This document shows, one piece after another, positions 12,368 through 58,056 of a stretch of DNA of 62,354 bases. The position numbers and the translations under genes are program-made. Origin of the DNA: Phycisphaera sp. (GTDB taxonomy: Bacteria > Planctomycetota > Phycisphaerae > Phycisphaerales > Phycisphaeraceae); contig WGMF01000003.1 of the NCBI GenBank assembly GCA_016125215.1, forward strand, positions 1 through 62,354, written 5' to 3'. The notes beneath the pieces are model-generated. The model searched no databases and was not told where the DNA came from. It was given only the letters and a program-made list of their open reading frames with translations. Every line of letters begins with the position of its first letter. The stretch's first letter is position 1.

Positions 12368-12373
12368 TACAAT
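12368..12373 (+). promoter_or_regulatory. -10 hexamer TACAAT, leaderless pattern
   Basis: TACAAT ends 6 nt before the ATG at 12380, placing the expected transcription start at the start codon. Confidence 0.5.
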
Positions 12374-12379
12374 TCCCTT

Positions 12380-13126
12380 ATGCCTGATCGGGTTGACCAT
12401 CACTTGCGGTTGTCATCGGATGTCGATCAACGTCCGACCCCCCGTCGGCGAGTGCGTCGGCCGTTTCTCTGGGCGTTGGGAATCTCGGTGGTCTTGCACA
12501 CCCTGTTCCTGATTAGCCTGAATATCAAGCGTGACCCGCCGACCGTGACGACCGGCACGAACAACCCGCCGGCAGCCTTGGCCGACGACCCCGCCGCGAC
12601 CGAGCCGATCCAGCCCACGGATGAGCACATCCGAGAGCTTTTGGCTGACGAGTCGCGTTACGTGGCCATGCGTTCACCCGAAGCCCAGGTGGCACAGGTC
12701 GAGCGGAACCTCGACGCGCTCAACAAGATCGACGGCGCCAGCGTCAGACAGATGGCCGAGGCGATCGAGTCAGCGATGGGTGTTCAAAAAAACGGGCGTA
12801 AATACGAACCCGACCCGGCCGCCACGGGATCATTCGATCACGAGACCGCGCTCCTGTATGACATCGCACCCCATACCCTAGACGATGGCTCGCCCGGTTA
12901 CCGTTACACGCTCGTCGACAAAGACGGTCGGTCGATGACCTACGACACCTCAGCCGGTGAGATGACGAAGGCCGACCTCAACGCGGCGCGCATCTTCGAT
13001 ATGGCTCGGCAAAACCCGCAACTCAAACCGCTGCTCGACTCGGTTCGGAAAATCCTCGACGCCAAAGCCGGGGATATCACCACAGAGGACACGGAGAGCA
13101 CAGAGAAGACAGAAAGCAGGAGATAG
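12380..13126 (+). CDS. Membrane-anchored hypothetical protein
   Basis: 248 residues. A basic cytoplasmic N-terminus with RRRVRRP precedes one transmembrane helix (about 30-48, WALGISVVLHTLFLISL), then a long polar outside portion, a TonB/periplasmic-anchor-like topology without a TonB domain. Residues about 80-240 are charged and partly helical. The last 15 residues (ITTEDTESTEKTESRR) are encoded by the left arm of the interspersed repeat at 13079, so the native end of the protein was probably shorter. TACAAT 6 nt before the start suggests leaderless transcription. Function unknown. Confidence 0.7.
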   Translation: MPDRVDHHLRLSSDVDQRPTPRRRVRRPFLWALGISVVLHTLFLISLNIKRDPPTVTTGTNNPPAALADDPAATEPIQPTDEHIRELLADESRYVAMRSPEAQVAQVERNLDALNKIDGASVRQMAEAIESAMGVQKNGRKYEPDPAATGSFDHETALLYDIAPHTLDDGSPGYRYTLVDKDGRSMTYDTSAGEMTKADLNAARIFDMARQNPQLKPLLDSVRKILDAKAGDITTEDTESTEKTESRR

Positions 13127-13256: not shown

Positions 13257-13916
13257 TTACCCGCTCTGACCTGTAATCCTGACCCGTCGCCCCTCGAAAC
13301 GCACCCTTCCCTGTGCGATGAGCTGCAACGCCTGCGGATAAGCGACGCACTCCTGCTCGAAGACGCGGGCGGCAAGGGTGTCGGGGGTGTCGTCTTCGCG
13401 GACTTCGCACGGGCGTTGGACGATGATCGGGCCGGTGTCGTAGGTCTGGTCGCAATAGTGGACGGTGCAGCCGGTGATTTTGCATCCTGATGCAAGCACA
13501 GCTTCGTGGACGTGGTGGCCATACATCCCCGGTCCGCCGAACGCCGGCAGCAAGGCCGGGTGGATGTTGACGACGCGGTGTGCGAAGTCATCGGGGATGT
13601 CGAGCAGGCTCATGAAACCCGCGAGACAGACGAGGTTGGCGTCGCTGTCACGGATAATCTCCCAGATCGCTGAGGAAAAGCATTGCGTGTCCGGGTAACG
13701 CTTCCGGGGGACGACGTGCGTGGGGAGTTGGAGTTCGCCGGCTCGTTCGATGGCCCCGACTCCGGGTCGTGATGAGATGACGGTGACGATCCCGGCATCG
13801 AGTCGGCCCCGCTCGATGTGACCGGCGATGTTGACCATGCTGCGGCCCCCGCCGGTGACGAGGACCGCCAACTTCAGGGGTTGCCTGGACGATTGCTCAT
13901 TCGCGGTGTTGGGCAT
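13257..13916 (-). CDS. purN: Phosphoribosylglycinamide formyltransferase
   Basis: 219 residues from the ATG at 13916. It formylates GAR from 10-formyl-THF in purine synthesis, in the cytoplasm. It has LAVLVTGGGRSM at the N-terminus, VVNIHPALLPAFGGPGMYG with catalytic Asn and His, and VHYCDQTYDTGPIIVQ, all PurN signatures. The length fits. The start is confirmed by a TATCGT box exactly 6 nt upstream. It is head-to-head with gluQ and may share a -10 region with it. A CCCCCGGAAG motif is at 13701, read as PRK. Confidence 0.95.
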   Translation of the reverse strand: MPNTANEQSSRQPLKLAVLVTGGGRSMVNIAGHIERGRLDAGIVTVISSRPGVGAIERAGELQLPTHVVPRKRYPDTQCFSSAIWEIIRDSDANLVCLAGFMSLLDIPDDFAHRVVNIHPALLPAFGGPGMYGHHVHEAVLASGCKITGCTVHYCDQTYDTGPIIVQRPCEVREDDTPDTLAARVFEQECVAYPQALQLIAQGRVRFEGRRVRITGQSG

Positions 13917-13921
13917 GGGTG

Positions 13922-13928
13922 TACGATA
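13922..13928. promoter_or_regulatory. Overlapping divergent -10 shared by purN and gluQ
   Basis: TACGATA read on the plus strand gives TACGAT (13922-13927), 6 nt before the GTG at 13934; on the minus strand the same bases give TATCGT (13928-13923), 6 nt before the purN ATG at 13916. The two boxes overlap by five bases. Confidence 0.55.
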
Positions 13929-13933
13929 CCCGT

Positions 13934-14896
13934 GTGCTTGTCGCACCTCAAAAGACATCGAGGCATGTCACGCGCCTCGCGCCCTCACCGACGGGGGCGC
14001 TGCACCTTGGCAACGCCCGGACGTTTTTAATCAACTGGTCACTGGCGCGTCGCAATGGCTGGAAGATCGTGATGCGGATCGAAGACCTCGACACGCCTCG
14101 CGTTAAACCGGGGGCCGACCGGCAGGCAATCGAGGACCTTCGCTGGTTGGGTTTGGATTGGGACGAAGGCCCCTATACGCAGAAAGCCGACCTGTCGCCC
14201 TATCACACAGCCCTCGATCAGCTCAAGCGTGACGGGCTGGTCTACCCTTGCACCTGTACAAGAAGGGAAATCGATGAGGCCCAATCCGCGCCGCATCGGG
14301 ACGGCAACGAATCGCGCTACCCCGGCACGTGCAGGCACCGCATGGCCAGCGACCTGACCGATCAAACGATCGCTTGGCGAGTGAAAGTCCCCGATGAAGC
14401 GATCACATTCGACGACGCCTTCGCCGGTCGGTACACGCTCAACGTGCAACAGGACGTGGGCGATTTTGTTGTGGCCACCAAGGTGGGTCTGCCCGCGTAT
14501 CAACTCGCCGTCGTCGTGGACGACGTGCGTCAGGGTGTCACGCAGGTCGTGCGTGGCGACGACCTGTTGCCCTCGGCTGCGCGCCAGGTCTGGCTCTACC
14601 ACATGCTCGGCTGGCACGACCGCATCCCGACCTTGACCCACCTGCCACTGGTGGTTGGCCGGGATGGGCGCAGGCTGGCCAAACGGCACGGTGACACACG
14701 CTTGTCGAGTTACCGCGAAACCGACATCCCGCACGAGCGCATCGTTGGGCTGCTTGCATCGTGGTCGGGTATCGTGAACAAGCCCGAGCCGATGTCGGCT
14801 CACCAATTTGCCCAGCGGTTTGACCTGTCCCGACTGTCCCACCAACCCGTCGTATTCACCGAGCAGGATGAACAATGGCTTCTACGCAAACCATGA
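13934..14896 (+). CDS. gluQ: Glutamyl-queuosine tRNA(Asp) synthetase
   Basis: About 320 residues. It charges the queuosine base of tRNA(Asp) with glutamate; it is a truncated paralogue of glutamyl-tRNA synthetase without an anticodon-binding domain. RLAPSPTGALHLGNA is the class I HIGH-type motif, LAKRHGDTRL the KMSKS-type motif, and YPCTCTRRE the zinc-binding-like segment. I chose the GTG at 13934 because of the -10 box; GTG at 13919 is in frame and would add five residues. Overlaps the next gene by 22 bp. Confidence 0.9.
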   Translation: MLVAPQKTSRHVTRLAPSPTGALHLGNARTFLINWSLARRNGWKIVMRIEDLDTPRVKPGADRQAIEDLRWLGLDWDEGPYTQKADLSPYHTALDQLKRDGLVYPCTCTRREIDEAQSAPHRDGNESRYPGTCRHRMASDLTDQTIAWRVKVPDEAITFDDAFAGRYTLNVQQDVGDFVVATKVGLPAYQLAVVVDDVRQGVTQVVRGDDLLPSAARQVWLYHMLGWHDRIPTLTHLPLVVGRDGRRLAKRHGDTRLSSYRETDIPHERIVGLLASWSGIVNKPEPMSAHQFAQRFDLSRLSHQPVVFTEQDEQWLLRKP

Positions 14897-17649: not shown

Positions 17650-17655
17650 TATGAT
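17650..17655 (+). promoter_or_regulatory. -10 hexamer TATGAT, leaderless pattern
   Basis: TATGAT ends 6 nt before the ATG at 17662, which also settles that start. Confidence 0.55.
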
Positions 17656-17661
17656 GTCAGC

Positions 17662-18348
17662 ATGACGACGCACGTCGCCATCCTCTGGGCAAAATATATC
17701 GACCTGATCCTCGACGGCACCAAGACCGTCGAGAGCCGACTGATGACCAACCGCCAACCCCCGTACGGTATGGTGAAGGAAGGCGACGTGATCTACTTCA
17801 AGCAGTCGGGCGGGCCTTTCCGAGCGGTGGCGCGAGCGGGCAAGGTGGTGGAGTTCGAGGGTTTGAACGTCCCGAAGCTGCGTGCGATTTACAAAGAGTT
17901 CAACGCAAGGGTCTGCGGCGACAGGGCATACTGGCAGCGTAAAGAACACAGCCGATTTGCCACGTTTATCACGATCAACGACGCCAGGCCGACCGAGGCT
18001 GGGCCGATCTTCAAGGCATCCGCGTGGAAGGCTTGGCACGTGTTAAAGAGTGACATGGCTACCGAGCGAACCCTTGAAATCAAACTCACCGGCGGCGCGA
18101 TCCGCAACCGTTACGTGAGCGTGACGGGCCACGAAGGATTTTTCCCCTCTGGCATGTTCTCGGTGGTCTTGCCGGATGGTTCGGAAATCACAACGGACGT
18201 CAATCCACGCAAGCTCATCCGCTACCGGGGGTGGCGGCCGTGGTTCGAGCGCGCGGGCGTGATGGAGGGCGACACGGTCCGTTTCGAGCAAGTCGGTAAC
18301 AAGCGTTACCGCGTGAGCTTTCCCGTCAACGGGAGTAACCGGGCGTGA
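17662..18348 (+). CDS. ASCH-domain protein
   Basis: 228 residues from the ATG at 17662, which has a TATGAT box 6 nt upstream; an earlier in-frame ATG at 17608 is unlikely. It starts AILWAKYIDLILDGTKTVESRL, the ASCH signature (a PUA-like RNA-binding fold) with the Gly-Thr-Lys-Thr-x-Glu-x-Arg motif. The second half (about 135-228) looks like a small beta domain with TGHEGFFP and is not recognised. Its stop overlaps the nadC GTG by 4 bp, so the two are translationally coupled. Role is presumably RNA- or nucleotide-related. Confidence 0.8.
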   Translation: MTTHVAILWAKYIDLILDGTKTVESRLMTNRQPPYGMVKEGDVIYFKQSGGPFRAVARAGKVVEFEGLNVPKLRAIYKEFNARVCGDRAYWQRKEHSRFATFITINDARPTEAGPIFKASAWKAWHVLKSDMATERTLEIKLTGGAIRNRYVSVTGHEGFFPSGMFSVVLPDGSEITTDVNPRKLIRYRGWRPWFERAGVMEGDTVRFEQVGNKRYRVSFPVNGSNRA

Positions 18349-27334: not shown

Positions 27335-29236
27335 TCAGAGTTCGACCTGCGCCCCGATCTCGATGACGCGGTTGGAGGGGATGCCGAAGTAGGACGTGAC
27401 GGGTTGGGCGTTGCGTGACAGGGCGATGAAGATGCGTTTTCGCCACGCCATCATGCCCGGGCGTTTGCTGACCAGGAGCATCTCGCGTCCGAGGAAGAAG
27501 GTGGTTTCGAGCATGTTGAACTTCATGCCGTGCGCCTCGGAGCCGAGGATGCGCGGGACGTTGGGTTCTTCCATGTAACCGTAGTGCGCGATGATCTGGT
27601 GGCAACCCATGCCCAGGTCCTTGAAGACGATGCGTTCGGCTTCATCGATGCGTGGGACTTCGTGTGTGCGGAGGGTGAGCCAGATGACGTGTTCGTGGAG
27701 GGTCTTGTTGTGGTTGAGCTGGTGAACGAGGGCGAGGGGGACGCTGTCGGGGTTTCCGGTGAGGAAGATGGCGGTTCCGGGCACGCGGACGGGCGGGTGG
27801 TTGGACAGGTCCTTGATGAAGGCTTCGGATTTGATGAGCTTGGAGTAGACGCGTTTGCCCAGCAGCGCCCGCCCGTGTTTCCATGTGGTCATGAGGACGT
27901 AGACGATCAGGCCCATGAGCAGGGGGAACCAGCCGCCCTCGGCGATCTTGACGATGTTGGCGCTGAAGAAGGTCAGGTCGAAGCAGAGGAAGAAGACGAG
28001 CACCGCAAGGGATTGCCAGAGCTTCCATTTCCAGAGGTAATAGGTGACGGGGAAGGCGAGCGTGGAGGTGATGACCATGGTGGTGGCGATCGCCACGCCG
28101 TAGGCCGACGCCATGTTGCTGGAGGTCTGGAACCCGATGACGAGGAGGATGGTGCCGACCATCATGCAGGCGTTGATGCCGGGGAGGTAGACCTGGCCCA
28201 TCTCTTTGGAGGAGGTGTGGACGATCTTGACACGGGGGAAGTAACCGAGTTGGACCGCCTGGCTGGTGAGTGAGAAGACGCCTGAGATCACGGCCTGCGA
28301 TGCGATGATGGTGGCCAGCGCCGCGAGCACCACGGTGGGGTAGAGCGCCCAGCCGGGGACCATGTGATAGAACGGGTTGAAGGCGTAGTCGGGGTTGCGC
28401 AAGAGCAGCGCGCCTTGGCCGAAGTAGTTGAGCACGAGAGCAGGCATGACAAATGCAAACCAGTCTATCTGGATGGGCCAGCGCCCGAAGTGTCCCAGGT
28501 CGGCATAAAGCGCTTCGCCACCCGTCGCCACGAGGAAGACCGCGCCGAGCACGAGGAAGCCCGACCCCGAGTTGAGGTAAAAGAACTTGGCGGCGTACCA
28601 CGGGTTGATGCCCATGAGCACCGAGGGTGTCTGCAAGATGCTCACCAGCCCGGTCACCGCCAGCAGCAGGAACCAAACGATGGTGATCGGCCCGAAGATG
28701 ATGCCGACGCCCCCGGTGCCCCGGCTCTGGAACATGAACAGCCCGACGAGGATGGCGATGGTGATCGGCACGACATAAGGTGCCAACCCCGGTGTGGCGA
28801 CTTCGAGGCCCTCGATCGCGCTGGTGACGGAGATGGCGGGCGTGAGCAGGCCGTCGCCGTAGAGCAGCGCCGCGCCGAACAGACCCATCGGCAAGAGCAC
28901 GACCCACGCGCGTTTGCCCTCCAACGCCCGGTGCATGAGCGCCACCATCGCGAGGATGCCGCCCTCGCCCTTGTTGTCGGCGTGGAGGACGAAGACCAGG
29001 TACTTGAGCGCGACCTGGACCACCATCGTCCAGAAGACCAGCGACAGGACGCCTAACACATTGTCACTGAGCACCACCCCGTCGTGTAGGATGGGGACGG
29101 CGTGCTCACCGTGGAAACACTCGCGGATGGCGTAGAGCGGGCTGGTGCCGATGTCCCCGTAGACGATGCCCACGGCGATCAGGCACAGGTGCGCCAGCGC
29201 TCGGCCACGGGGTTGATCTTTGTGTAAACCGCTCAT
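27335..29236 (-). CDS. kup: Kup-type potassium transporter
   Basis: 633 residues from the ATG at 29236; the frame continues to 29293 but with no family resemblance. It moves K+ with protons across the inner membrane. Twelve membrane segments are readable: GIVYGDIGTSPLYAIREC at the start, LYGDGLLTPAISVTSAIEG, and the cytoplasmic C-terminal domain from about 450 with PVRVPGTAIFLT, ERIVFKDLGMGCHQIIAHYG and a usual VIEIGAQVEL end. The first membrane motif GDIGTSPLY is the conserved signature. No regulatory RNA is evident. Confidence 0.96.
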   Translation of the reverse strand: MSGLHKDQPRGRALAHLCLIAVGIVYGDIGTSPLYAIRECFHGEHAVPILHDGVVLSDNVLGVLSLVFWTMVVQVALKYLVFVLHADNKGEGGILAMVALMHRALEGKRAWVVLLPMGLFGAALLYGDGLLTPAISVTSAIEGLEVATPGLAPYVVPITIAILVGLFMFQSRGTGGVGIIFGPITIVWFLLLAVTGLVSILQTPSVLMGINPWYAAKFFYLNSGSGFLVLGAVFLVATGGEALYADLGHFGRWPIQIDWFAFVMPALVLNYFGQGALLLRNPDYAFNPFYHMVPGWALYPTVVLAALATIIASQAVISGVFSLTSQAVQLGYFPRVKIVHTSSKEMGQVYLPGINACMMVGTILLVIGFQTSSNMASAYGVAIATTMVITSTLAFPVTYYLWKWKLWQSLAVLVFFLCFDLTFFSANIVKIAEGGWFPLLMGLIVYVLMTTWKHGRALLGKRVYSKLIKSEAFIKDLSNHPPVRVPGTAIFLTGNPDSVPLALVHQLNHNKTLHEHVIWLTLRTHEVPRIDEAERIVFKDLGMGCHQIIAHYGYMEEPNVPRILGSEAHGMKFNMLETTFFLGREMLLVSKRPGMMAWRKRIFIALSRNAQPVTSYFGIPSNRVIEIGAQVEL

Positions 29237-29621
29237 CGTGGGGTACTCATTTTTTATCTGGGCAGGCCAACCCTCGTGGTCAATAAAACACAACTCACCC
29301 GAGGGTTCGGGTGCGAATGATAGTTCTCAAGGGTGAACCTGTGCACGCATGACTCGCGGCAGAGAGAACGCCCTTCCAAAAGCCTACGGAGTTAGCTGGC
29401 GGGCTAGGCCTTGGAAGTGGCCCGGGCGGTCAGTTGCCTGTCGCCCCACGCCCCGTCCACCGTCGGTCAAGGTGGAGTTGGGTCCTCCGTACCCGCCCCA
29501 CACGTTCGGGACGGGTCTCGGCTGCGGAATAGTCTGTCGATTTCGTTCACATGTGTCAAACCCCGAGGTCCCATCCAACGAATCCCGCACAACGCCGTAC
29601 AACGCCAGGCCCGCATCACTG
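29237..29621. other. Divergent intergenic region with two hairpins, no gene
   Basis: ACCCGA-gggt-TCGGGT lies at 29297-29312. A stronger one at 29373-29417 has CTTCCAA/TTGGAAG outside and GCCTA/TAGGC inside, with GTTAGCTGGC in the loop. Both strands have Cys/Pro/Arg-rich spurious frames but none looks coding. It separates kup (-) and gatA (+). Confidence 0.5.
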
Positions 29622-29627
29622 TAAGAT
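29622..29627 (+). promoter_or_regulatory. -10 hexamer TAAGAT, leaderless pattern
   Basis: TAAGAT ends 7 nt before the ATG at 29635, which argues for this start over the ATG at 29626, which lies inside the box. Confidence 0.5.
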
Positions 29628-29634
29628 GTCGCCC

Positions 29635-31098
29635 ATGTCAGGAGACTTCCACACGCTTTCGCTCAAAGCCACACGCGACGCCATTGCTGACGGCTCGCTC
29701 CGCGCGGTCAACGTGACACGCGCCTACCTCGACCGCATCGAAATACTCAACCCCACACTCAACGCCTACCACGAGGTCTTTGCCGACCGCGCGTTGCACA
29801 CCGCCCAGCGTGTCGACGCCGGCGAAATCAAAGGCCCCCTTGCGGGTGTGCCCCTGGCGATCAAAGACAACCTCTGCACGGACTTCGGCCACACCACCTG
29901 TTCTTCAAAAATGCTGGCCGACTTCCGATCGCCCTACACCGCCACGGCGGTCCGCAGGCTCGAAGAAGCCGGCGCGGTGATCCTGGGCAAGACGAACATG
30001 GACGAGTTTGCCATGGGCTCGTCGACCGAGACGTGCGTGTTCGGCGTGGTGCGCAACCCGTGGGACACACGCTGCGTTCCCGGCGGATCATCCGGCGGTT
30101 CTGCCGCGGCGGTGGCCGCTGGGCTGTGCGCCGCGGCGCTGGGCAGTGACACCGGGGGCAGCATCCGTCAGCCCGCGTCGTTCTGTGGCATCGTCGGCCT
30201 CAAACCGACCTACGGGCGCATCAGCCGGTGGGGACTCATCGCCTTTGCCAGCAGCCTCGACCAGATCGGCCCACTCACGCGCACCACCGAAGACGCCGCC
30301 CTGCTCATGCAGGTCATGTCCGGTCAAGACGAACTCGACTCCACCTGCGCACCCGACGACGTGCCCGACTACAGCGCCCAGATAGATCAGCCGATCAATC
30401 CGCTTCGCATCGGTTTGCCGAGGCAATACCTCTCCGACAAGAACCACCCCACCGTCGCCGCGATGATGGACCGCGCGACAGCGATGTTCAAGGAGATGGG
30501 TGCCACGCTCGTCGAGATCGACCTGCCCCACACCGAGTTCGGCATCCCGACCTACTACATCGTCGCCCCCGCCGAGGCCAGCTCCAACCTTGCACGCTAC
30601 GACGGCGTGCGCTACGGCTACCGATGCGAAAACCCCACCGACCTCGTCGACCTCTACTCACGCTCGCGCAGCGAGGGCTTCGGTGACGAGGTCAAACGCC
30701 GGATCATGCTCGGCACACACGTGCTCTGCAGCGGGTATTACGATGCGTACTACACCCGTGCCCTGCGCGTCCGCAGGCTCATCAAGCAGGACTTCGACAA
30801 CGCCTTTGCATCCTGCGATGTCGTGATGTGCCCCACCACGACAGGGCCGGCCTTCCCGATGGGGCAGAACAGCGACGACCCGCTGGCGATGTATCTCAAC
30901 GACATCTACACCGTCACGTGCAACCTCGCGGGACTTCCGGGCATCAGCCTGCCGGGCGGGTTTGTTGAGGCCGACGGCCGCAAACTCCCGGTCGGACTGC
31001 AACTGCTCGGGCCTGTCTTTGAAGAGGCCCGCCTGCTCCGTGTGGCACGCATGCACGAAAAAGCCTCGGGATTGAGCAACCTCATCGCGGATATCTGA
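29635..31098 (+). CDS. gatA: Aspartyl/glutamyl-tRNA amidotransferase subunit A
   Basis: 487 residues from 29635. With GatB and GatC it converts Glu-tRNA(Gln) or Asp-tRNA(Asn) to the amide. The amidase triad is readable: Lys77 in VPLAIKDN, Ser152 in PGGSSGGSAAA and Ser176 in SDTGGSIRQPA. The rest matches GatA throughout, with the usual length. gatB and gatC are not adjacent. A TAAGAT box 7 nt upstream favours this start. 24 bp separate it from the ROK kinase gene. Confidence 0.95.
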   Translation: MSGDFHTLSLKATRDAIADGSLRAVNVTRAYLDRIEILNPTLNAYHEVFADRALHTAQRVDAGEIKGPLAGVPLAIKDNLCTDFGHTTCSSKMLADFRSPYTATAVRRLEEAGAVILGKTNMDEFAMGSSTETCVFGVVRNPWDTRCVPGGSSGGSAAAVAAGLCAAALGSDTGGSIRQPASFCGIVGLKPTYGRISRWGLIAFASSLDQIGPLTRTTEDAALLMQVMSGQDELDSTCAPDDVPDYSAQIDQPINPLRIGLPRQYLSDKNHPTVAAMMDRATAMFKEMGATLVEIDLPHTEFGIPTYYIVAPAEASSNLARYDGVRYGYRCENPTDLVDLYSRSRSEGFGDEVKRRIMLGTHVLCSGYYDAYYTRALRVRRLIKQDFDNAFASCDVVMCPTTTGPAFPMGQNSDDPLAMYLNDIYTVTCNLAGLPGISLPGGFVEADGRKLPVGLQLLGPVFEEARLLRVARMHEKASGLSNLIADI

Positions 31099-32443: not shown

Positions 32444-32851
32444 TCACCACTCGACATGCACCCAGACCTTGCGTGTCCTGGGTCCGTCATACTCGCAGAG
32501 GTAAACGCCCTGCCACGTTCCCAGTCGGAGTGTGCCCGAGTCCGCAAGCAGTGTCACACTCGAACCCATCATCGACGCCTTCACGTGTGCGGCGCTGTTG
32601 CCCTCGTTGTGTCTGAAGAATGGCTGATCCCACGGCACCATGCGGTCGAGCTGCTCGAGCATGTCGTGGACCACATCCGGGTCAGCGTTTTCGTTGATCG
32701 TGATGCCCGCCGTGGTGTGCGGGACAAACACCGTGACACGGGCCACCCCGACCTGCGATCGGCTGAGGAGGGCTTGCACCCGGTCCGTGACCTCGACCAT
32801 TTCGCTGCGCTTGTGTGTGCGGACTTCGAATCCGTGTTGTTGCATGGTCAT
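32444..32851 (-). CDS. yjbQ: YjbQ/UPF0047 family protein
   Basis: 135 residues from the ATG at 32851, chosen for its TATCAT box 7 nt upstream (ATGs at 32860 and 32845 are in frame). HTTAGITINENADPDV, HNEGNSAAHVKASMMGSSVTL and LGTWQGVYLCEYDGPRTRKVWV are the YjbQ signature; some members have low thiamine phosphate synthase activity. It is beside the transhydrogenase operon but on the other strand. The natural role is uncertain. Confidence 0.92.
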   Translation of the reverse strand: MTMQQHGFEVRTHKRSEMVEVTDRVQALLSRSQVGVARVTVFVPHTTAGITINENADPDVVHDMLEQLDRMVPWDQPFFRHNEGNSAAHVKASMMGSSVTLLADSGTLRLGTWQGVYLCEYDGPRTRKVWVHVEW

Positions 32852-32978
32852 GCGGACCATGATAACCCCGGGCCTCAGAATGTGACTCCGAAGTCTTTTT
32901 GTAGTAAAACTGTTTCACCCCGTTGCAGGCGACGCGGTGGACTTTGCAGCGATGAACCGCCCGATCAGGAATCAGCGT

Positions 32979-37393: not shown

Positions 37394-37399
37394 TAAACT
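37394..37399 (+). promoter_or_regulatory. -10 hexamer TAAACT, leaderless pattern
   Basis: TAAACT ends 6 nt before the nuoA ATG at 37406; TTGCCG at about 16 bp upstream could be a -35. Confidence 0.5.
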
Positions 37400-37405
37400 C
37401 ACGCC

Positions 37406-37813
37406 ATGATCTTAATGTTGCCTGTTCTGGCCGAGGCTTCGTTCAACCAGTTCGCCGTGGTCGGTGTGCTGCTGCTGATTGCCATTGTGTTCGGCGTGGG
37501 GAACCTGGTGATCTCCAAGCTGATGGGGCCGTCGCGTGAGGGGCCGATCAAGGGCCTGGTCTACGAATCGGGCATGAACCCGATCACCCCGGCCCGTCGT
37601 CGTTTCAACGTTCGCTTCTACGTCGTGGCGATGACGTTTCTGGTCTTCGACGTCGAGATCGTCTTCCTCTACCCTTGGGCAACGACGTTCCCGAGCCTCG
37701 CACAAGACAGCCCCCTGAACGTTCTGTTTCTCGGACGCATGCTCTTTTTCGTGCTTACCACGGTCATCGCGTTCCTGTACGCCTGGCGCAAGGGCGTGTT
37801 CCGATACGACTGA
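37406..37813 (+). CDS. nuoA: NADH-quinone oxidoreductase subunit A, not in a nuo cluster
   Basis: 135 residues, three membrane helices. It is the small membrane subunit of complex I. KGLVYESGMNPITPARRRFNVRFYVVAMTFLVFDVEIVFLYPWA is the NuoA core (kept here to a description: YESG, FNVRFY and FDVEIVFLYPWA). nuoB-nuoN are not next to it; after the stop comes a palindromic repeat and a convergent ABC gene. It has its own -10 box. Confidence 0.93.
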   Translation: MILMLPVLAEASFNQFAVVGVLLLIAIVFGVGNLVISKLMGPSREGPIKGLVYESGMNPITPARRRFNVRFYVVAMTFLVFDVEIVFLYPWATTFPSLAQDSPLNVLFLGRMLFFVLTTVIAFLYAWRKGVFRYD

Positions 37814-38912: not shown

Positions 38913-41216
38913 TCACTCCACGGGGACAAGGATACGCACAACGGTCCAGCCGCGCGAGGGCAGCGTTCGGTCATCGACCTTCAACGGCACCGGCAGCGGT
39001 CCGTCGCGGATGTGCCCGATGATGAGCACGCGCCGCAGGGCCAGTTGTTCGGTCAGGTCATAGATACGCCCAGCCGATCGGATGACGGTCAACGGCAGGT
39101 CCGTGAAGTTCTGCATGTCGCGTGGCTTGGTATCCGGCGCGGGCAGCGCGTCGTAGAAAGTCATCGCTTCGACGGCGTAGATTTCCTGGTCCGAGGCGTT
39201 GGTGGTGGGCGACTGTTGCATGGCCTGACCGCCGGCAAAGCCCATGAGCGTGCCCCAGCCGGGCTTCCTGTCATAAAACAGTTGCCCGAGGAACCCGCCC
39301 CACGCTTCACGGTTCGGTGGCGGCGGTGTAAGCATGCGTACCGCGTTGCTCGGCAACTTCCCTTCGAACTTGAGTGCCGACCCGACCGCCCACGTCCCGA
39401 TGCGCCAGGCCCAGGGCGATTGGCCGTTGCCGGGCGAGTAAACGACAAACGCATCGGTCAGGTCCGCGGGGAAGCCGTGGACGAGTGCGCCACTTGGGAA
39501 GCCGTCGTCGTTGCGCAGCGTGCCCTGCGGGGGGACCCAATCTTTTGAAAGCCCATCACCACCGGCAACAAGGCGCGTGGCGTAATCGATCTCGAACTCT
39601 TTAGCCGTCGCACGCATCGGCACCTCGCGGTCGGCGGGGTTCATGGTGTCGACGGTGTAACTCTGCGGGTCGAGGAAGGTGTTGGTCTCGTCACTGTCGA
39701 GTACGCCGGAGGTCGTGACGGTGGTGAAGTTGCCCAGGCCGTCGGGCGGTGTGATGTTGATGGGTACGCGGCCGAAACGTGGGATAAAGGTGGCTAACCA
39801 ACTGTGAGTACGGGTCCAGCCCGTGCCGGTTTCGTGCGTAAGGATGCTCACGTGCTGGAGCGCCGCGGTGCGTGGACGAAGCAGCACCGCCCCGCCCCAC
39901 GCGATGACGTTGAACACGGCGACGACGACCAGGAACGCCATCCAACTGTAGTGGAGCTTGCCTTTGGATTTGAGGTAGGCGTAACTGATCGGGCCGGCGA
40001 TAAGCCAGTAGAGCGCGAAGATGATGATGGCCAGCAGCAGCGCCGGGGCGGCGGTCTCGGTCTTGGCAATTCGGCTGGGGATAAAGGCGTCGAGTGAATG
40101 CACCGCCCTTGAGACGGGGTTGTTCATCTGCTGGCTCTGCACCGCCTGCTCGGCGACGGCCTTGGGCATCCACATCGCTTCCCAGCCGTAGACCGCTTTC
40201 CACAATTCATTGCCGTTGGGCAGGCCGGAGGTCACCACCGCGCGTTCCGTCAGGTCGATCCCGATGAGCGTGACCCGGCCAAGCCCATATGGGGACGCCA
40301 CGACAACGGGGAAGCCCTCGTTGGTCGAGAGCAATGTCGAAACCTCACGCGACTCGGGGCGAGAGGTGTCCGGTGTGAGCACGCGCAGTGAGATGGTCGG
40401 TTCGCGCAGGCCCTGAGCACGGCCAAGCCACATGGGGAGACGCTGGTTGGTGAGCGTGGTCATCGTGACAGCGGGGAGCAGGTCCGCCAGTTCCGATTTG
40501 CTCCACGTCTCCAACCCATTGGGCAGCACGACCACCAGGTGCCCGCCACGCCGGACCCACTCATGGATCGCCGGCACCGCTGCGCGTGGGAGCGTCGAGA
40601 CATCCCCCCCATCCGGCGACCAGATCAACGAATGCAGCAGACTCAATCCGTACCACCGGTCGGGCATCGCATCGGGCGAGAGGCCCTGGAGGATGAGAGC
40701 CTTTTCATGTTGGCAGTATTCGTGAGCGTAACCGTTGAGCCCCAGCGGGTTGAACCCGACCAGCCCGATGACGTGGCCGTATTGCGGCGCGACCTCGGGC
40801 AGTTCGTAGCGTTGCGATTGAAGGAGCTTGCCCGTCTCTTCATCGACCAGACGAATCTCATAGCGATCCTTCATCCGCGACGAGACCGGCAGACACGCAT
40901 AAAGCCAGAAGCGCTCGACACGCTGCGGGTTGAGCGCCTTGATGAGTCGTTGATTGACCACCTGGTCGCCGTCGGCATCGGGGTGGACCCACTGCAAACG
41001 CACCTGTCGAATCACCGACGACTGGTTCTGCAGTGTTACCACCATCGGCGACCAGACCCCCGGTCGCAGCACCCCACCAAGCCCGACATTCTCGGGCTGC
41101 AGCGTCATCTTGATGTTGTCTACCTGACCCAAGGCTGCCCGAGTGAGCAACGCGCAGAGCAACAGGGCAACAACCCGAACACCCCATCGGAATGGACTAC
41201 CTCTGCGCGTGGTCAT
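38913..41216 (-). CDS. Large membrane-anchored protein linked to the ABC ATPase
   Basis: 767 residues from the ATG at 41216, with a TAAACT box 6 nt upstream. A signal peptide (VVALLLCALLTRAALGQ) precedes a domain with AIHEWVRRGGHLVVVLPNG, a pattern seen in GATase-like or DUF4350-type proteins with an auxiliary role. Membrane helices follow near 395-415 and 430-455 (LLLAIIIFALYWLIAGPISYA and SWMAFLVVVAVFNVIAW), then an outside C-terminal half. The arrangement with the ABC ATPase resembles planctomycete pairs of unknown function, possibly export or gliding-type machinery. No substrate can be given. Confidence 0.75.
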   Translation of the reverse strand: MTTRRGSPFRWGVRVVALLLCALLTRAALGQVDNIKMTLQPENVGLGGVLRPGVWSPMVVTLQNQSSVIRQVRLQWVHPDADGDQVVNQRLIKALNPQRVERFWLYACLPVSSRMKDRYEIRLVDEETGKLLQSQRYELPEVAPQYGHVIGLVGFNPLGLNGYAHEYCQHEKALILQGLSPDAMPDRWYGLSLLHSLIWSPDGGDVSTLPRAAVPAIHEWVRRGGHLVVVLPNGLETWSKSELADLLPAVTMTTLTNQRLPMWLGRAQGLREPTISLRVLTPDTSRPESREVSTLLSTNEGFPVVVASPYGLGRVTLIGIDLTERAVVTSGLPNGNELWKAVYGWEAMWMPKAVAEQAVQSQQMNNPVSRAVHSLDAFIPSRIAKTETAAPALLLAIIIFALYWLIAGPISYAYLKSKGKLHYSWMAFLVVVAVFNVIAWGGAVLLRPRTAALQHVSILTHETGTGWTRTHSWLATFIPRFGRVPINITPPDGLGNFTTVTTSGVLDSDETNTFLDPQSYTVDTMNPADREVPMRATAKEFEIDYATRLVAGGDGLSKDWVPPQGTLRNDDGFPSGALVHGFPADLTDAFVVYSPGNGQSPWAWRIGTWAVGSALKFEGKLPSNAVRMLTPPPPNREAWGGFLGQLFYDRKPGWGTLMGFAGGQAMQQSPTTNASDQEIYAVEAMTFYDALPAPDTKPRDMQNFTDLPLTVIRSAGRIYDLTEQLALRRVLIIGHIRDGPLPVPLKVDDRTLPSRGWTVVRILVPVE

Positions 41217-41222
41217 CGACAA

Positions 41223-41228
41223 AGTTTA
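41223..41228 (-). promoter_or_regulatory. -10 hexamer TAAACT (minus strand), leaderless pattern
   Basis: TAAACT on the minus strand ends 6 nt before the ATG at 41216. Confidence 0.5.
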
Positions 41229-41571: not shown

Positions 41572-41577
41572 TAAACT
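41572..41577 (+). promoter_or_regulatory. -10 hexamer TAAACT, leaderless pattern
   Basis: TAAACT ends 7 nt before the pyrC ATG at 41585. Confidence 0.5.
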
Positions 41578-41584
41578 CTGTGGC

Positions 41585-42940
41585 ATGGCCACCACCGTCA
41601 TCCGCAACGGACGTGTTATCGACCCGCTCAACGAGATCGATACGGTTACGGACATCGTGCTTGCCAACAGCAAGGTCCAGCGCATCGGCAAGGTCTCCGA
41701 CCCCGACGCGCAGGGAGAACACGTCACCGTGATCGATGCGTCGGGCTGCCTCGTCACACCGGGGCTGATCGACATCCACGTCCACCTGCGCGAGCCGGGC
41801 GAAGAAGACAAAGAGACGATTGCCACCGGCGCCGCCGCCGCGGTGAACGGCGGGTTTACCAGTGTCTGCTGCATGCCCAACACCAAGCCCGCGCTCGACG
41901 ACGAGGGCCGAATCGAGATGGTCTACCGCCAGGCCGCGCGGGCCAACCTGGCCAACGTCTACCCCGTCGGCGCGGTCACCCGTGGCCGCGCCGGGAAAGA
42001 ACTTGCCGAGATCGGCTTGATGTCCGAGGCCGGCGCGGTAGCGTTCAGTGACGACGGTGTCGCGGTCGCCTCGTCGGCCGTCTGTGCCAAAGCGATGGCC
42101 TACATTGCCATGACGGGCAAGGTCTTCATGCAACACTGCGAAGACCCCGAACTGGGCGGTGGCGTGATGAACGCCGGGACACTGGCCACACGACTGGGCC
42201 TCTCCGGTTGGCCACGCGTCGCGGAAGAACTCATCATCCAGCGCGACATCCTGCTCAACATCTCGGGCGGGGCCAAGTGCCGATACCACGTGCAGCACAT
42301 CTCCTCAGGCGGGAGCGTCGAGATGGTCCGGCGGGCGCGTCACGACCTGTTCGGCCAGGCCCACGTCACCGCAGAGGCCTCCCCCCACCATCTCCTACTG
42401 ACCGAAGAATCCTGCGCCACCTACGACACGAACTTCAAGATGAACCCCCCCCTGCGAAACCGACGGGATATCGAGGCCATCCTCGAAGCCATCCGCGACG
42501 GGGTCATCACCGTCCTGGCCACCGACCACGCCCCGCACACGCAGGAAGAAAAAGAACTCGAGTTCGCCGCCGCCCCATTCGGGATCATCGGTCTCGAATC
42601 CGCCCTGCCGCTCTACGCCCGCGCCCTGGTCGAATCCGGTGTCATCGATTGGCCCCACATGATCGGGATGATGACGATCCACTCTGCCAAACTCGTCAAC
42701 CTCGACAAGACCAAAGGCCACCTCACCGTGGGTGCCGACGCCGACGTGACAATCATCGACCCGAACGAAAATTGGACCCTCGATGCCCACGCTTTTGCGA
42801 GCAAGAGCCGGAACTGCCCCTTCCACGGCTGGCAGGTGACCGGTCGCGCACTGGCGACGGTCGTCGGCGGGGATGTCAAAATGTGCCGGGACGAAGGGCG
42901 GATCAGAGAGCCGCAGATGAACGCAGATGAACGCAGATGA
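41585..42940 (+). CDS. pyrC: Dihydroorotase
   Basis: 451 residues, class I type. It forms dihydroorotate from carbamoyl aspartate in pyrimidine synthesis. Metal ligands are readable: DIHVHLREPGEEDKET, the FMQHCEDPE and HVTAEASPHHLLLTEE His residues, and VLATDHAPHTQEEKE. The last 8 residues (QMNADERR) come from a repeat arm of gcagatgaac units (42912-42940), not the family fold. Other pyr genes are absent; pyrC is often with pyrB. Confidence 0.95.
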   Translation: MATTVIRNGRVIDPLNEIDTVTDIVLANSKVQRIGKVSDPDAQGEHVTVIDASGCLVTPGLIDIHVHLREPGEEDKETIATGAAAAVNGGFTSVCCMPNTKPALDDEGRIEMVYRQAARANLANVYPVGAVTRGRAGKELAEIGLMSEAGAVAFSDDGVAVASSAVCAKAMAYIAMTGKVFMQHCEDPELGGGVMNAGTLATRLGLSGWPRVAEELIIQRDILLNISGGAKCRYHVQHISSGGSVEMVRRARHDLFGQAHVTAEASPHHLLLTEESCATYDTNFKMNPPLRNRRDIEAILEAIRDGVITVLATDHAPHTQEEKELEFAAAPFGIIGLESALPLYARALVESGVIDWPHMIGMMTIHSAKLVNLDKTKGHLTVGADADVTIIDPNENWTLDAHAFASKSRNCPFHGWQVTGRALATVVGGDVKMCRDEGRIREPQMNADERR

Positions 42941-46867: not shown

Positions 46868-49036
46868 TCACCTCGACCGGCGTTTGCGGTGCATGACCTT
46901 GCTCCCGGGGGTGCCGGGCTTGGGTTTGGGCTTCGCGCCGACGCGACCGGTGATCGCGCCTAATCCGGGTGAGTCGCGCAGCATCTTCACCTTGTCACGC
47001 AGCTCGGCGGCTTTCTCGAACTCCAGCGCGTCCGCCGCTTCGAGCATGAGCTTCTCAAGATCGCTGATGAGTTCGTCACGGTCGAAGGTCTCTTCGTCCT
47101 TCTCCACCGCATCCATCGCCGTTTTGCGGGCACGCAACTCCAACTCGATGCCCCGCCGGATTTCTTTCTTGATGGTCTGTGGTGTGACGCCGTGCTCAGT
47201 GTTGTACGCCAATTGTTTTTCACGGCGACGCTGGGTCTCGTCCATCGCCTGTTTCATCGCGGGCGTCACCGTGTCGGCATAGAGATAAACCGTCGCATCG
47301 ACGTTCCTCGCCGCCCTGCCGATCTGCTGGATGAGCGACGTGGCGCTGCGCAGAAAGCCCGTCTTGTCCGCGTCCATGATCGCCACGAGCGAGACCTCGG
47401 GTAAGTCCAACCCTTCACGCAGCAGGTTCACACCCACCAGAACGTCGTACTCGCCCTCGCGCAGCTCGCGCAGGATCTGCACCCGGTCGAGCGTCTCGAT
47501 CTCGCTGTGCAGGTACCGGCACTTGAGGCCCTGTTCCTGGAGATACGTCGACAAATCCTCGGCCAACCGTTTGGTCAGCGTCGTCACCAGTGTGCGCTGC
47601 CCCTTGAACGACCGCTCGGCGGCGGCCTTGAGCAGGTCCGGGACCTGGCCCTGCGCGGGGCGCACTTCGATCACCGGATCGACCAGACCCGTCGGGCGGA
47701 TCACCTGTTCCACCACCTCGCCCCCGCACTGTTGCAGTTCGTAAGGGCCGGGGGTCGCGCTCACAAACACCACCTGCGGCCAAACCTTCTCGATCTCCTC
47801 AAACCGCAGCGGCCGATTGTCCATCGCACTGGGCAAACGAAATCCATGGTCCACCAGCACCTGCTTCCGTGCCCGGTCCCCGTTGAACATCGCCCGCATC
47901 TGCGGCAACGTCACGTGACTTTCATCGATCATGAGCATCCACCCCCCCCCCGAAGTTTCCCCTGTGTTCACTGCGTCCAACTTGGGGATGTCATCACGCG
48001 ATCCGTCCACGTACCCGCCGTGATATTCTCCCGACTGCGCATCGGGGAAATAGTCCATCAATGTGTAAGGCTTGCTCCCGGGGGGCCGACCGTCGAGGTG
48101 GCGGGAGTAGTTTTCGATGCCCTGGCAGTAGCCCACTTCCTTGATCATCTCCAGGTCGTACTTGGTGCGTGCCAGCAATCGCTGCGCTTCGAGGAGCTTG
48201 CCCTCGTGACGCAGTTGCATGACGCGGTGGTCGAGTTCCTCCTTGATCGAGGTGAATGCCCGCTCCATTTTTTCCTCGGGCACGACGTAATGGACCGCGG
48301 GGTAGATGAAGAGCTGGTCGACACTCGCGAGCACCTCGCCCGAGATGGGGTTGACGTATTCGAGTCTGTCGACGGTGTCGCCGAAGAGTTCGATGCGGTA
48401 GGCAAACTCCTCGGCGGCGGGGTAGACCTCGACCACGTCGCCCCGCACCCGGTAGTTCCCACGCACGAAGTCCGCCTCGGCCCGCTTGTATTGCAGGTCG
48501 TTGAGAGCCAGGAAGAAGTCCCGCCGGGCAAACTCCTGGCCCTTGAAAACACTGACCACGCTCTTTTTGTATTCGTCAGGCGAACCCAGCCCGAAGATGC
48601 ACGAGACCGAGGCCACGACGATCACGTCGTTGCGCGTGACGAGGTTGGTCGTGGCGGCCAGACGCAGGCGGTCGAGGTCGTCGTTGCGCGAGGAGTCTTT
48701 CTCGATATAGATGTCCCTCGCGGGGATGTAGGCCTCGGGCTGGTAGTAGTCGTAGTAAGAGACGAAATAACAGACCGCGTTGTGTGGGAAGAGTTCCTTG
48801 AACTCCTCGTAAAGCTGCGCAGCCAGTGTCTTGTTGTGGCTGATGACGAGCGTGGGTTTGTTGAGGCGCGCGATGACATTCGCCATCGTGAAGGTCTTAC
48901 CCGTGCCGGTGGCACCGAGCAGGGTCTGGTACTTCTTCCCCGACGTGATCGACTCGACCAGCGCGTCGATGGCGCCCGGCTGGTCGCCGCGCGGCTGGTT
49001 CTCGCTCACAAGCTGAAAGGACTGTTGATCGGGCAT
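46868..49036 (-). CDS. uvrB: Excinuclease ABC subunit B
   Basis: 722 residues. It is the DNA damage-verifying helicase of nucleotide excision repair, in complex with UvrA and then UvrC. LLGATGTGKTFTMAN (Walker A), SYYDYYQPEAY (beta-hairpin), VNLLREGLDLPEVSLVAI, GRAARNVDATVYLYAD and the C-terminal UVR motif LEFEKAAELRDK are intact. A TATGAT box 6 nt before the ATG suggests a leaderless transcript. An SOS box is not seen. Its stop lies in the edge of a repeat. uvrA and uvrC are not present. Confidence 0.97.
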   Translation of the reverse strand: MPDQQSFQLVSENQPRGDQPGAIDALVESITSGKKYQTLLGATGTGKTFTMANVIARLNKPTLVISHNKTLAAQLYEEFKELFPHNAVCYFVSYYDYYQPEAYIPARDIYIEKDSSRNDDLDRLRLAATTNLVTRNDVIVVASVSCIFGLGSPDEYKKSVVSVFKGQEFARRDFFLALNDLQYKRAEADFVRGNYRVRGDVVEVYPAAEEFAYRIELFGDTVDRLEYVNPISGEVLASVDQLFIYPAVHYVVPEEKMERAFTSIKEELDHRVMQLRHEGKLLEAQRLLARTKYDLEMIKEVGYCQGIENYSRHLDGRPPGSKPYTLMDYFPDAQSGEYHGGYVDGSRDDIPKLDAVNTGETSGGGWMLMIDESHVTLPQMRAMFNGDRARKQVLVDHGFRLPSAMDNRPLRFEEIEKVWPQVVFVSATPGPYELQQCGGEVVEQVIRPTGLVDPVIEVRPAQGQVPDLLKAAAERSFKGQRTLVTTLTKRLAEDLSTYLQEQGLKCRYLHSEIETLDRVQILRELREGEYDVLVGVNLLREGLDLPEVSLVAIMDADKTGFLRSATSLIQQIGRAARNVDATVYLYADTVTPAMKQAMDETQRRREKQLAYNTEHGVTPQTIKKEIRRGIELELRARKTAMDAVEKDEETFDRDELISDLEKLMLEAADALEFEKAAELRDKVKMLRDSPGLGAITGRVGAKPKPKPGTPGSKVMHRKRRSR

Positions 49037-49042
49037 AGTGAC

Positions 49043-49048
49043 ATCATA
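49043..49048 (-). promoter_or_regulatory. -10 hexamer TATGAT (minus strand), leaderless pattern
   Basis: TATGAT on the minus strand ends 6 nt before the uvrB ATG. Confidence 0.5.
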
Positions 49049-50554: not shown

Positions 50555-50560
50555 TACACT
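50555..50560 (+). promoter_or_regulatory. -10 hexamer TACACT, leaderless pattern
   Basis: TACACT ends 7 nt before the cmk ATG at 50568, which argues against the in-frame TTG at 50562. Confidence 0.5.
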
Positions 50561-50567
50561 CTTGCCC

Positions 50568-51260
50568 ATGTCGGACCTGATTATCACCCTCGACGGCCCG
50601 GCGGGTTCGGGCAAGAGCAGCGTCGCCCGCAAGCTGGCGCAACGCCTGGGGCTGGAGTTTCTCGACACCGGCGCGATGTACCGCGGCATCACCGCCCAGT
50701 GCCTCGACCACGGCGTCAACCCCACGCAGGAGCCCGAGCGTGTCATCGAAGTCGCACGGTCGGTGCGGATGCGTTTTGCCTGGGGCGACGATCCGCCGCG
50801 ATTGATTATTGACGGCCGCGACGTGACGCATCGGCTGCGCGACCCGGACGTGACCGTGAGCGTGAGTGACGTGGCCATGCTTGCGGGGGTGCGTGAGGTC
50901 ATGGTTCGGCTGCAGCAGCGCATCGGGGCCGAGCACAGCCGACTCGTCACCGAGGGGCGTGACCAGGGGTCGGTGGTGTTCCCCGATGCGCGGGTGAAGT
51001 TTTATCTTGATGCGTCCGCGAAGGTGCGGGCCGGCCGCCGAGCCAGGCAGTTGCGTGAAGCCGGCCGCGAGGCGGACGAGGCGGTCATCCTCGCGCAGAT
51101 CATCCAGCGTGACCAGAAAGACTCGACGCGCAAAGACGGGCCTTTGATCTGCCCGCCGGACGCGGTGCGGATCGATACGTCCGAGATGACCCTCGAAGAG
51201 GTGCTGAACCTGCTCGAAGCCAAGTCACGTGAAAAAGCGGGCCGTGCGATTCAGGTATGA
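50568..51260 (+). CDS. cmk: Cytidylate kinase
   Basis: 230 residues from the ATG at 50568. It phosphorylates CMP and dCMP. ITLDGPAGSGKSSVARKLA is the P-loop; LEFLDTGAMYRGIT, VTEGRDQGSVVFPDARVKFYLDAS and QRDQKDSTRKDGPLICPPDAVRIDT are the usual Cmk blocks. A TACACT box precedes the start. It follows mltA by 43 bp, and the LUD gene is 35 bp downstream. Confidence 0.96.
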   Translation: MSDLIITLDGPAGSGKSSVARKLAQRLGLEFLDTGAMYRGITAQCLDHGVNPTQEPERVIEVARSVRMRFAWGDDPPRLIIDGRDVTHRLRDPDVTVSVSDVAMLAGVREVMVRLQQRIGAEHSRLVTEGRDQGSVVFPDARVKFYLDASAKVRAGRRARQLREAGREADEAVILAQIIQRDQKDSTRKDGPLICPPDAVRIDTSEMTLEEVLNLLEAKSREKAGRAIQV

Positions 51261-57017: not shown

Positions 57018-57023
57018 TATACT
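57018..57023 (+). promoter_or_regulatory. -10 hexamer TATACT, leaderless pattern
   Basis: TATACT ends 7 nt before the ATG at 57031; if used, the structured element at 56904 would be upstream of transcription and not in the mRNA. Confidence 0.5.
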
Positions 57024-57030
57024 CCCCTGC

Positions 57031-58056
57031 ATGAATCAGCACACAGTCGTATTGATCCCCGGCGACGGCATCGGTCCCGAGGTGGCCGACGCGGTCCGGT
57101 TTGTCTTTGATAAAGCCCACGCCCCGGTGGTCTGGGAAGAGCACCTTGCCGGTCTGAGCGCCCTCGACAAAGGGCTTGACCTTCTGCCCGAAGAAACTCT
57201 CGAAGCGATCCACCGCCACAAGATCGCGCTCAAGGGTCCGTGTACGACGCCGGTCGGCAAGGGGTTCTCATCGATCAACGTGGCCCTGCGTAAAAAACTC
57301 AACCTCTACGCCGCGGTCCGGCCGGTGCGGTCGTTGCCGGGGGTCAAGACGCGTTACGACGATGTCGACCTTGTCATCGTGCGTGAGAACACAGAGGGTC
57401 TCTACTCCGGAGTTGAAAACGAGGTGCTCCCGGGGGTGGTGATGAGCATGAAGGTCGCCTCCGAGACGGCCTGCCTGCGCATTGCCCACTACGCCTTCCG
57501 TTACGCGACGCAGCGCCGCCGAAAGAAGGTCACGCTCTTCCACAAGGCCAACATCATGAAACTCACCGACGGCATGATGCTGCGCTGTGCCGAGAAAATC
57601 CACACCGAAGAGTACCCCAACATCGAATACGAACCGCTCATCATCGACGCGGGCTGCATGAAGCTGGTGCAGGACCCCTCACGGTTCGACGTGCTGCTCA
57701 TGGAGAACCTGTACGGCGACGTGGTGAGCGACCTGGCGGCGGGTTTGGTGGGCGGTCTGGGTGTCGTGCCGGGGGCGAACATCGGTGACGAGGGCGCGGT
57801 CTTCGAGGCGGTCCACGGATCGGCCCCGGACATCGCGGGCAAAGGCATTGCCAACCCCCTGGCGCTGGTGATGAGCGCGGTGATGATGCTCAATCACCTC
57901 GGCCAGACCCGGCACGACGATGCGTGCAAAAAATCGGCTGTCCGCATCCGTGACGCCTATAACAAGACGTTAGCTGACGGCTGTGGGACGCGCGACCTCG
58001 GCGGGCAGTTGAATACCCAATCTTTTGCGCAGGCCGTGGCTGATCGATTGTCGTGA
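57031..58056 (+). CDS. NAD-type isocitrate/isopropylmalate dehydrogenase family
   Basis: 341 residues from the ATG at 57031. The family oxidises isocitrate (or isopropylmalate); the short single-domain form and ENTEGLYSGVEN, the residue set of NAD-linked isocitrate dehydrogenases, favour isocitrate. LIPGDGIGPEVADAV (N-terminal), KKVTLFHKANIMKLTDG (Lys), ENLYGDVVSDLAAGLVGGLGVVPGANIG (Asp metal ligands) and EAVHGSAPDIAGKGIANP are conserved. It should supply 2-oxoglutarate, the GltD/GltB substrate. A TATACT box precedes the ATG. It converges on the 58072 gene with 15 bp between stops. Confidence 0.9.
   Translation: MNQHTVVLIPGDGIGPEVADAVRFVFDKAHAPVVWEEHLAGLSALDKGLDLLPEETLEAIHRHKIALKGPCTTPVGKGFSSINVALRKKLNLYAAVRPVRSLPGVKTRYDDVDLVIVRENTEGLYSGVENEVLPGVVMSMKVASETACLRIAHYAFRYATQRRRKKVTLFHKANIMKLTDGMMLRCAEKIHTEEYPNIEYEPLIIDAGCMKLVQDPSRFDVLLMENLYGDVVSDLAAGLVGGLGVVPGANIGDEGAVFEAVHGSAPDIAGKGIANPLALVMSAVMMLNHLGQTRHDDACKKSAVRIRDAYNKTLADGCGTRDLGGQLNTQSFAQAVADRLS

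Follow-up and report, generated by a model that had tools for sequence, protein, structure and literature searches.

The closest described systems come from two genome surveys. Zheng et al. (2011; PMC3160421) described TA-led genes, marked by a TANNNT motif some 12 nt ahead of the start codon. Zhong et al. (2025; PMC12340547) reported the motif classes TANNNT and GGAG for Deinococcus-Thermus, the former placed a few bases before the open reading frame, found at about 30% of ORFs and useful for correcting start codons; that system was tested by mutation and reporters. In other bacteria, leaderless mRNAs are translated by a 70S or an IF2-dependent route (PMC10783764, PMC12340547). With regard to Planctomycetes, a 2017 survey (PMC5397173) offered "leaderless mRNA and/or RPS1" as a suggestion from base-composition bias, for one species and, in the part of the article available, with neither a promoter motif nor a spacing. 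Planctomycetes are unnamed among the groups with leaderless genes in the available sections of PMC3160421, which give 8/20 genomes for "Other Bacteria" with no breakdown, and the available text of PMC12340547 does not mention them, the by-phylum scan of the bacterial domain in its Fig. S7 lying outside this check. We found no report of the box layout described here in Phycisphaerales in the literature covered, which largely leaves out subscription journals.

Here we consider the window, that is, the whole 62,354-nt stretch of DNA analysed, number 35 among the 58 contigs of an assembly totalling 4.04 Mb. Its host belongs to the Phycisphaerales-type planctomycetes and not to the actinobacteria or Deinococcus with which the sequence-only reading compared the layout: named relatives of a 1228-aa protein (7941-11627) come mostly from Phycisphaeraceae, Phycisphaerales or Planctomycetota bins, and a gene tree (one gene, quick method, some long branches) places the window among those planctomycete bins. 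As in the TA-led genes of PMC3160421, the first T of the box lies about 12 nt upstream of the start, the box genes stand beside Shine-Dalgarno (SD)-led genes, and the middle three bases of the box are weak, as reported there for high-GC genomes. The two upstream motif classes of Deinococcus-Thermus, TANNNT and GGAG, both recur in the host, again with the box a few bases ahead of the ORF. The share of about 10% in the host is within the range of Table 2 of that study but lower than the roughly 30% in Deinococcus-Thermus and, unlike the experimentally tested system of PMC12340547, the host pattern is known from sequence alone. The layout itself is known from other bacteria; what is added here is that a planctomycete order appears to use it.

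Boxes before twelve start codons

The sequence-only reading had listed twelve genes with TANNNT ending 6 or 7 nt before the start codon, and all twelve sites are arranged in this way, seven at 6 nt and five at 7 nt. They are given below with the span from box to start codon, the strand and the spacing; "over cut-off" refers to the named protein-family model.

12368-12382, plus: TACAAT, 6 nt, ATG of a 248-aa protein with a hydrophobic stretch at its N-terminus (gene 12380-13126); no Pfam family; the coding-score choice lies 108 nt farther downstream
13914-13928, minus: TATCGT (13923-13928), 6 nt, ATG of purN (13257-13916); TIGR00639 over cut-off
13922-13936, plus: TACGAT (13922-13927), 6 nt, GTG of gluQRS (13934-14896); TIGR03838 over cut-off; 5-bp overlap with the purN -10, starts 18 bp apart
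17650-17664, plus: TATGAT, 6 nt, ATG of a 228-aa protein; no family in Pfam or NCBIfam
29622-29637, plus: TAAGAT, 7 nt, ATG of gatA; TIGR00132 over cut-off
32849-32864, minus: TATCAT, 7 nt, ATG of yjbQ; TIGR00149 over cut-off; the motif-blind caller preferred another in-frame ATG, at 32860, which the box overlaps
37394-37408, plus: TAAACT, 6 nt, ATG of the gene for NADH-quinone oxidoreductase chain 3 (NuoA-type); PF00507 over cut-off
41214-41228, minus: TAAACT, 6 nt, ATG of a 767-aa protein with a signal-peptide-like N-terminus (gene 38913-41216); no Pfam family; here too the coding-score choice lies 108 nt farther downstream
41572-41587, plus: TAAACT, 7 nt, ATG of pyrC (dihydroorotase); TIGR00857 over cut-off; box at 6-9 nt in 20/29 orthologues
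49034-49048, minus: TATGAT, 6 nt, ATG of uvrB; NF003673 over cut-off; box at 6-9 nt in 19/29 orthologues
50555-50570, plus: TACACT (50555-50560), 7 nt, ATG of the (d)CMP kinase gene cmk (50568-51260); TIGR00017 over cut-off; box at 6-9 nt in 8/29 orthologues
57018-57033, plus: TATACT, 7 nt, ATG of an isocitrate/isopropylmalate-dehydrogenase-family gene; box at 6-9 nt in 4/18 orthologues

For the last of these, the name leuB was dropped, as isocitrate dehydrogenase models match best in NCBIfam, without any of them passing its cut-off.

Start-codon choice deserves attention in such a list. The gene caller used here is blind to the motif and relies on coding statistics and start-codon type only. 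It gave exactly the listed start at five of the twelve sites (13916 minus, 17662, 41585, 49036 minus and 50568). At 13934, 29635, 32851 minus, 37406 and 57031 the listed start is an in-frame alternative 9-21 nt off, at a score loss of 0.3-2.8, and the distant starts at 12380 and 41216 (minus) are absent from the listed alternatives. These two box-supported starts add what look, by sequence, like an N-terminal membrane segment (12380) and a likely signal peptide (41216 minus), so the automatic annotations of 12380-13126 and 38913-41216 (minus) may err.

When any plausible start was allowed (within 60 nt, small score loss), 12 of the 50 called window genes had a box at spacing 6-7, as compared with 1-3 of 50 at five other spacing pairs. 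Ten of these twelve are listed sites; the other two are an alternative start at 43248 and the gene at 54505 (minus), which overlaps the previous one and whose box is probably a chance match. The same count in the genome sample, window included, gave 80/642 at spacing 6-7 and 12-32/642 at eight spacing pairs off the 6-9 peak, from which about 1.7 sites per 50 genes are expected by chance, close to the figure of about one given in the sequence-only reading. Chance should be behind one or two of the twelve window sites, and the window is somewhat richer in box genes than the genome sample (P = 0.018).

Two features of the neighbourhood are recorded in passing. The gene at 27335-29236 (minus), divergent from the box-bearing gatA, looks from its sequence like a Kup-type potassium transporter and is headed directly upstream by a c-di-AMP riboswitch (RF00379, 56.3 bits, cut-off 38; window 29366-29533, minus). 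Between purN (minus) and gluQRS (plus), at 13914-13936, a nearly symmetric TACGATA forms overlapping -10-like boxes on both strands. A shared symmetric -10 as a general architecture of divergent pairs was considered and rejected: opposed box-plus-start sites in the genome sample are most often 18 bp apart, but in 3 cases only; the symmetric pattern occurs 3 times in the whole host genome against 1 for the reversed control; and over 64 genomes it shows no excess, the control often being higher.

A spacing peak across the host genome

The genome sample consisted of 834,505 bases from 43 other contigs (the first 20 kb of each, or the whole contig if shorter) plus the window, 896,859 bases in all, with 647 called genes, 637 of them with enough upstream sequence. 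A genome-wide peak, on whose presence the sequence-only reading had let its proposal depend, is indeed there: it stands at 6-7 nt, and 8-9 nt form a shoulder. With motif-blind starts, TANNNT ended 6, 7, 8 and 9 nt before the start in 34, 19, 13 and 18 genes, over a background averaging 5.5 genes per spacing at 12-40 nt. That is, spacing 6-7 held 53 of about 637 genes against 11 expected (Poisson P ~7e-20), and the excess at 6-9 nt amounts to 9.7% of the sample genes. When 256 gapped three-base patterns were compared over 33 positions, TANNNT at 6 nt also came first (34 versus 4.4); words of 4 and 5 bases, scanned separately, gave GGAG at 7 and at 8 nt as the strongest signals (26 versus 1.6 each). 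Gene calls are not needed to see the pattern, as a whole-genome count gives 289 matches to TANNMT-N6-ATG, compared with 100 at N12 spacing and 94 for the reversed pattern; the looser TANNNT gives 453 against 358 reversed.

Carried through the same pipeline, 150 kb of D. radiodurans plasmid MP1 yielded the same peak (9/112 genes at 6-7 nt, 1.0 expected), and 100 kb of E. coli K-12 yielded 0/69 genes where 2.1 were expected. TANNNT was scarce just before starts in E. coli K-12 (L311, L354) as well as in two of the planctomycete genomes surveyed (G303, L319-L324; G278, L325-L331), and is possibly avoided there.

The boxes have the form of a promoter element. Position 5 is A or C in 87% of box genes, and 53% have a G at the second position upstream of the box, which recalls extended -10 elements. 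Against a promoter, no clear -35 element was seen in the box genes of the genome sample. ATG is the start codon in 51/53 box genes as compared with 441/585 others, the GTG of 13934 being the exception in the window. A C directly before the start codon was rejected as a mark of leaderless genes, being common to SD genes too (frequencies of 72% in box genes, 61% in SD genes and 45% in the remainder).

Box and SD sequence hardly meet. Taking GGAG, AGGA or GAGG at -17 to -4 as an SD core, we found one in 0/53 box genes versus 171/585 others (Fisher P = 4e-8), which bears out the earlier claim that the box is missing where the ribosome site is good and leaves 414 genes with neither. By context, a box precedes 24/212 divergent genes, 17/266 genes with a same-strand gap above 60 nt, 10/83 with a gap of 11-60 nt and 1/52 with a gap of at most 10 nt or an overlap, 25 other sample genes having no called upstream neighbour. 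The restriction of the box to first operon genes is weak in this sample.

Orthologues and competing explanations

For cmk, uvrB, pyrC and the 57031 dehydrogenase, orthologues were sought in 41 genomes of the host's order, host included, with 30 listed loci per gene; for the dehydrogenase, 18 of the 29 other loci (at least 60% identity) were kept and the lower-identity loci left out as apparent paralogues. The start of each orthologue was taken from its alignment to the window protein, for which the start of the sequence-only reading was used, and not from the motif. Among the resulting 105 orthologues, TANNNT ended 5, 6, 7, 8, 9, 10 and 11 nt before the start in 3, 20, 13, 7, 11, 3 and 4 cases, in none at 0-4 nt and in at most 4 at any single farther distance. 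The near-exclusion seen in the host recurs, in that 50 orthologues have only the box at 6-9 nt, 29 only an SD core, 1 both and 25 neither. Conservation is uneven, with the box kept in about two thirds of orthologues for pyrC (20/29) and uvrB (19/29) and in about a quarter for cmk (8/29) and the dehydrogenase (4/18).

An instructive case is pyrC in family f5 (L231, L233-L237). There, 6/6 rows carry their TATNAT or TATGCT box 24-30 nt ahead of the start, the intervening stretch containing an SD core, and in the other families most rows have the box beside the start. A box at such a distance with an SD core in between is what would be expected of a promoter, not of a ribosome site. The f5 arrangement is apparently a promoter whose transcript has gained a short leader, or the reverse, in either case a switch between a leaderless and a leadered state.

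We regard it as very likely that the boxes are the -10 elements of leaderless or nearly leaderless promoters, serving about 10% of the host's genes beside the SD-led ones. TANNNT would be the -10 element of an ordinary housekeeping-sigma promoter, from which RNA polymerase would initiate on the start codon or no more than about 3 nt away; with transcription beginning there, the mRNA would be leaderless or nearly so. The ribosome would then start on the 5′-terminal AUG with no SD contact, and translation would follow the leaderless route, 70S or IF2-dependent, as in other bacteria. The shoulder at 8-9 nt (13 + 18 genes) would correspond to leaders of 2-3 nt, so not all of these mRNAs would be strictly leaderless. 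The leaderless-mRNA interpretation in the sequence-only reading is supported to this extent, as one drawn from promoter geometry, by the spacing peak, the SD exclusion and the partial conservation among orthologues.

A different account of the same boxes would make them A/T-rich ribosome-binding elements of a non-SD kind, bound for example by ribosomal protein S1, with no promoter involved. The near mutual exclusion of box and SD core would be expected here too, and the 2017 survey kept "leaderless mRNA and/or RPS1" open for one planctomycete (PMC5397173). Yet the boxes take the -10 form TANN(A/C)T within a peak one or two bases wide instead of being diffuse A/T, the f5 pyrC boxes stand away from the start with an SD core between in all six rows, and the same geometry in D. 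radiodurans is a promoter by experiment (PMC12340547), so that we give this account little credence. It is less probable still, indeed close to negligible, that the pattern arose by chance together with a selective choice of start codons: seven of the twelve listed starts do differ from the motif-blind choice, two of them by 108 nt, but the peak is kept with motif-blind starts, in the call-free whole-genome counts and in orthologues. For the set this explanation is refuted; single sites could be chance, at about 1.7 per 50 genes.

The promoter reading leaves room for a further possibility, which is compatible with it and limits its weight, namely that a box drives one of several transcripts and that many main mRNAs carry a longer leader from an upstream promoter. 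Some boxes do lie in short same-strand gaps (the 10/83 at 11-60 nt, among them cmk at 50568, with a gap of 43 nt). The SD core expected of a leadered transcript is found in none of the 53 box genes, although 414 of the 585 non-box genes have none either, and on balance we consider such secondary promoters unlikely to be the main story.

Distribution among planctomycetes

Coming back to the leaderless promoters we favour, a survey of 392 genomes of the phylum with the reversed pattern as control showed the control exceeded in 6/6 same-family and 24/24 same-order genomes. A spacing control was then applied to 64 of the 392, picked by hand to span strong and weak families, so that the proportions are not estimates for the phylum; a genome was called positive at z of at least 4 and a ratio of at least 1.2. 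Positive were the host (1/1), 5/6 genomes of its family and 10/10 of other families in its order (f2, f3, f4), hence 16/17 in the order, then 0/8 in other families of the same class (f6, f7, f8) and 21/39 in the rest of the phylum. The one same-family genome to miss (G348) lies just under the threshold, with a ratio of 1.21 and z 3.6. For family f5, where the reversed control only was used, the counts were 242 versus 154 (G295) and 201 versus 85 (G368).

Families f31 and f72 gave 0/9 positives, and in the gene tree one member of each (G024 of f31; G121 of f72, on a long branch) falls with named Planctomycetia. G369 (f98), also with named Planctomycetia in that tree, passes (ratio 1.62, z 4.9), and G233 (f69), loosely with Planctomycetia on a long branch, passes strongly. 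Against a clean split stand a slight excess in 3/8 of the same-class negatives (z 1.8-2.3), G028 of f35 (z 2.8) and G268, which misses (z 2.2) in a family, f37, where two others pass. Tests with gene calls at 6-7 nt agree on both sides, with 5/85 genes in G364 (0.6 expected) and 7/94 in G348 (1.4), as against 0/78 in G024 (1.2), 1/73 in G303 (3.6) and 0/90 in G278 (3.7); the sparse 140 kb of the same-family genome G352 held 1/78, with 0.1 expected. In addition, across 71 named Phycisphaerales-type loci, which share one neighbourhood and hence are not independent, spacing 6-7 occurred in 56/662 genes, 9 of the 56 having an SD core too. Left out from the original 80 loci were seven from Planctomycetia (1/51 genes) as well as L104 and L064, both assigned to other phyla. 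L064, on a contig filed as a Bacteroidia bin, falls inside a tight planctomycete group of the gene tree and is therefore probably mis-binned.

The SD system appears intact alongside. A 16S rRNA search in 14 genomes found a readable 3′ end in 10 (8 of the order, 2 of the class), reading CACCTCCTTTCT in 11/11 loci (two from G127), so that the anti-SD CCTCC is intact in 10/10 genomes and no lost or altered anti-SD was found among them. An intact anti-SD in the host itself is suggested by this kinship, its own 16S being incomplete in the assembly, and SD words are enriched upstream of host starts in the word scan.

We lean, by a narrow balance, toward viewing leaderless expression as a lineage-defining mode in Planctomycetota that was gained or lost more than once. 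It would extend across the host's order and several distant families and would be faint or missing in f31, f72 and the sister families of the class, with single orthologous promoters switching mode by a shift of the -10 of about 20 nt and the gain or loss of an SD leader. For the host's order, this would mean that about a tenth of genes, as measured in the host, are expressed in this way while a normal anti-SD is kept and sister families are without the signal. In practical terms, the box can correct start codons in poorly annotated planctomycete genomes, as for 41216 (minus) and 12380. The interesting part, in our view, is the lineage pattern together with the switches within the order, in which orthologues found in both states form a natural experiment on what makes a gene leaderless.
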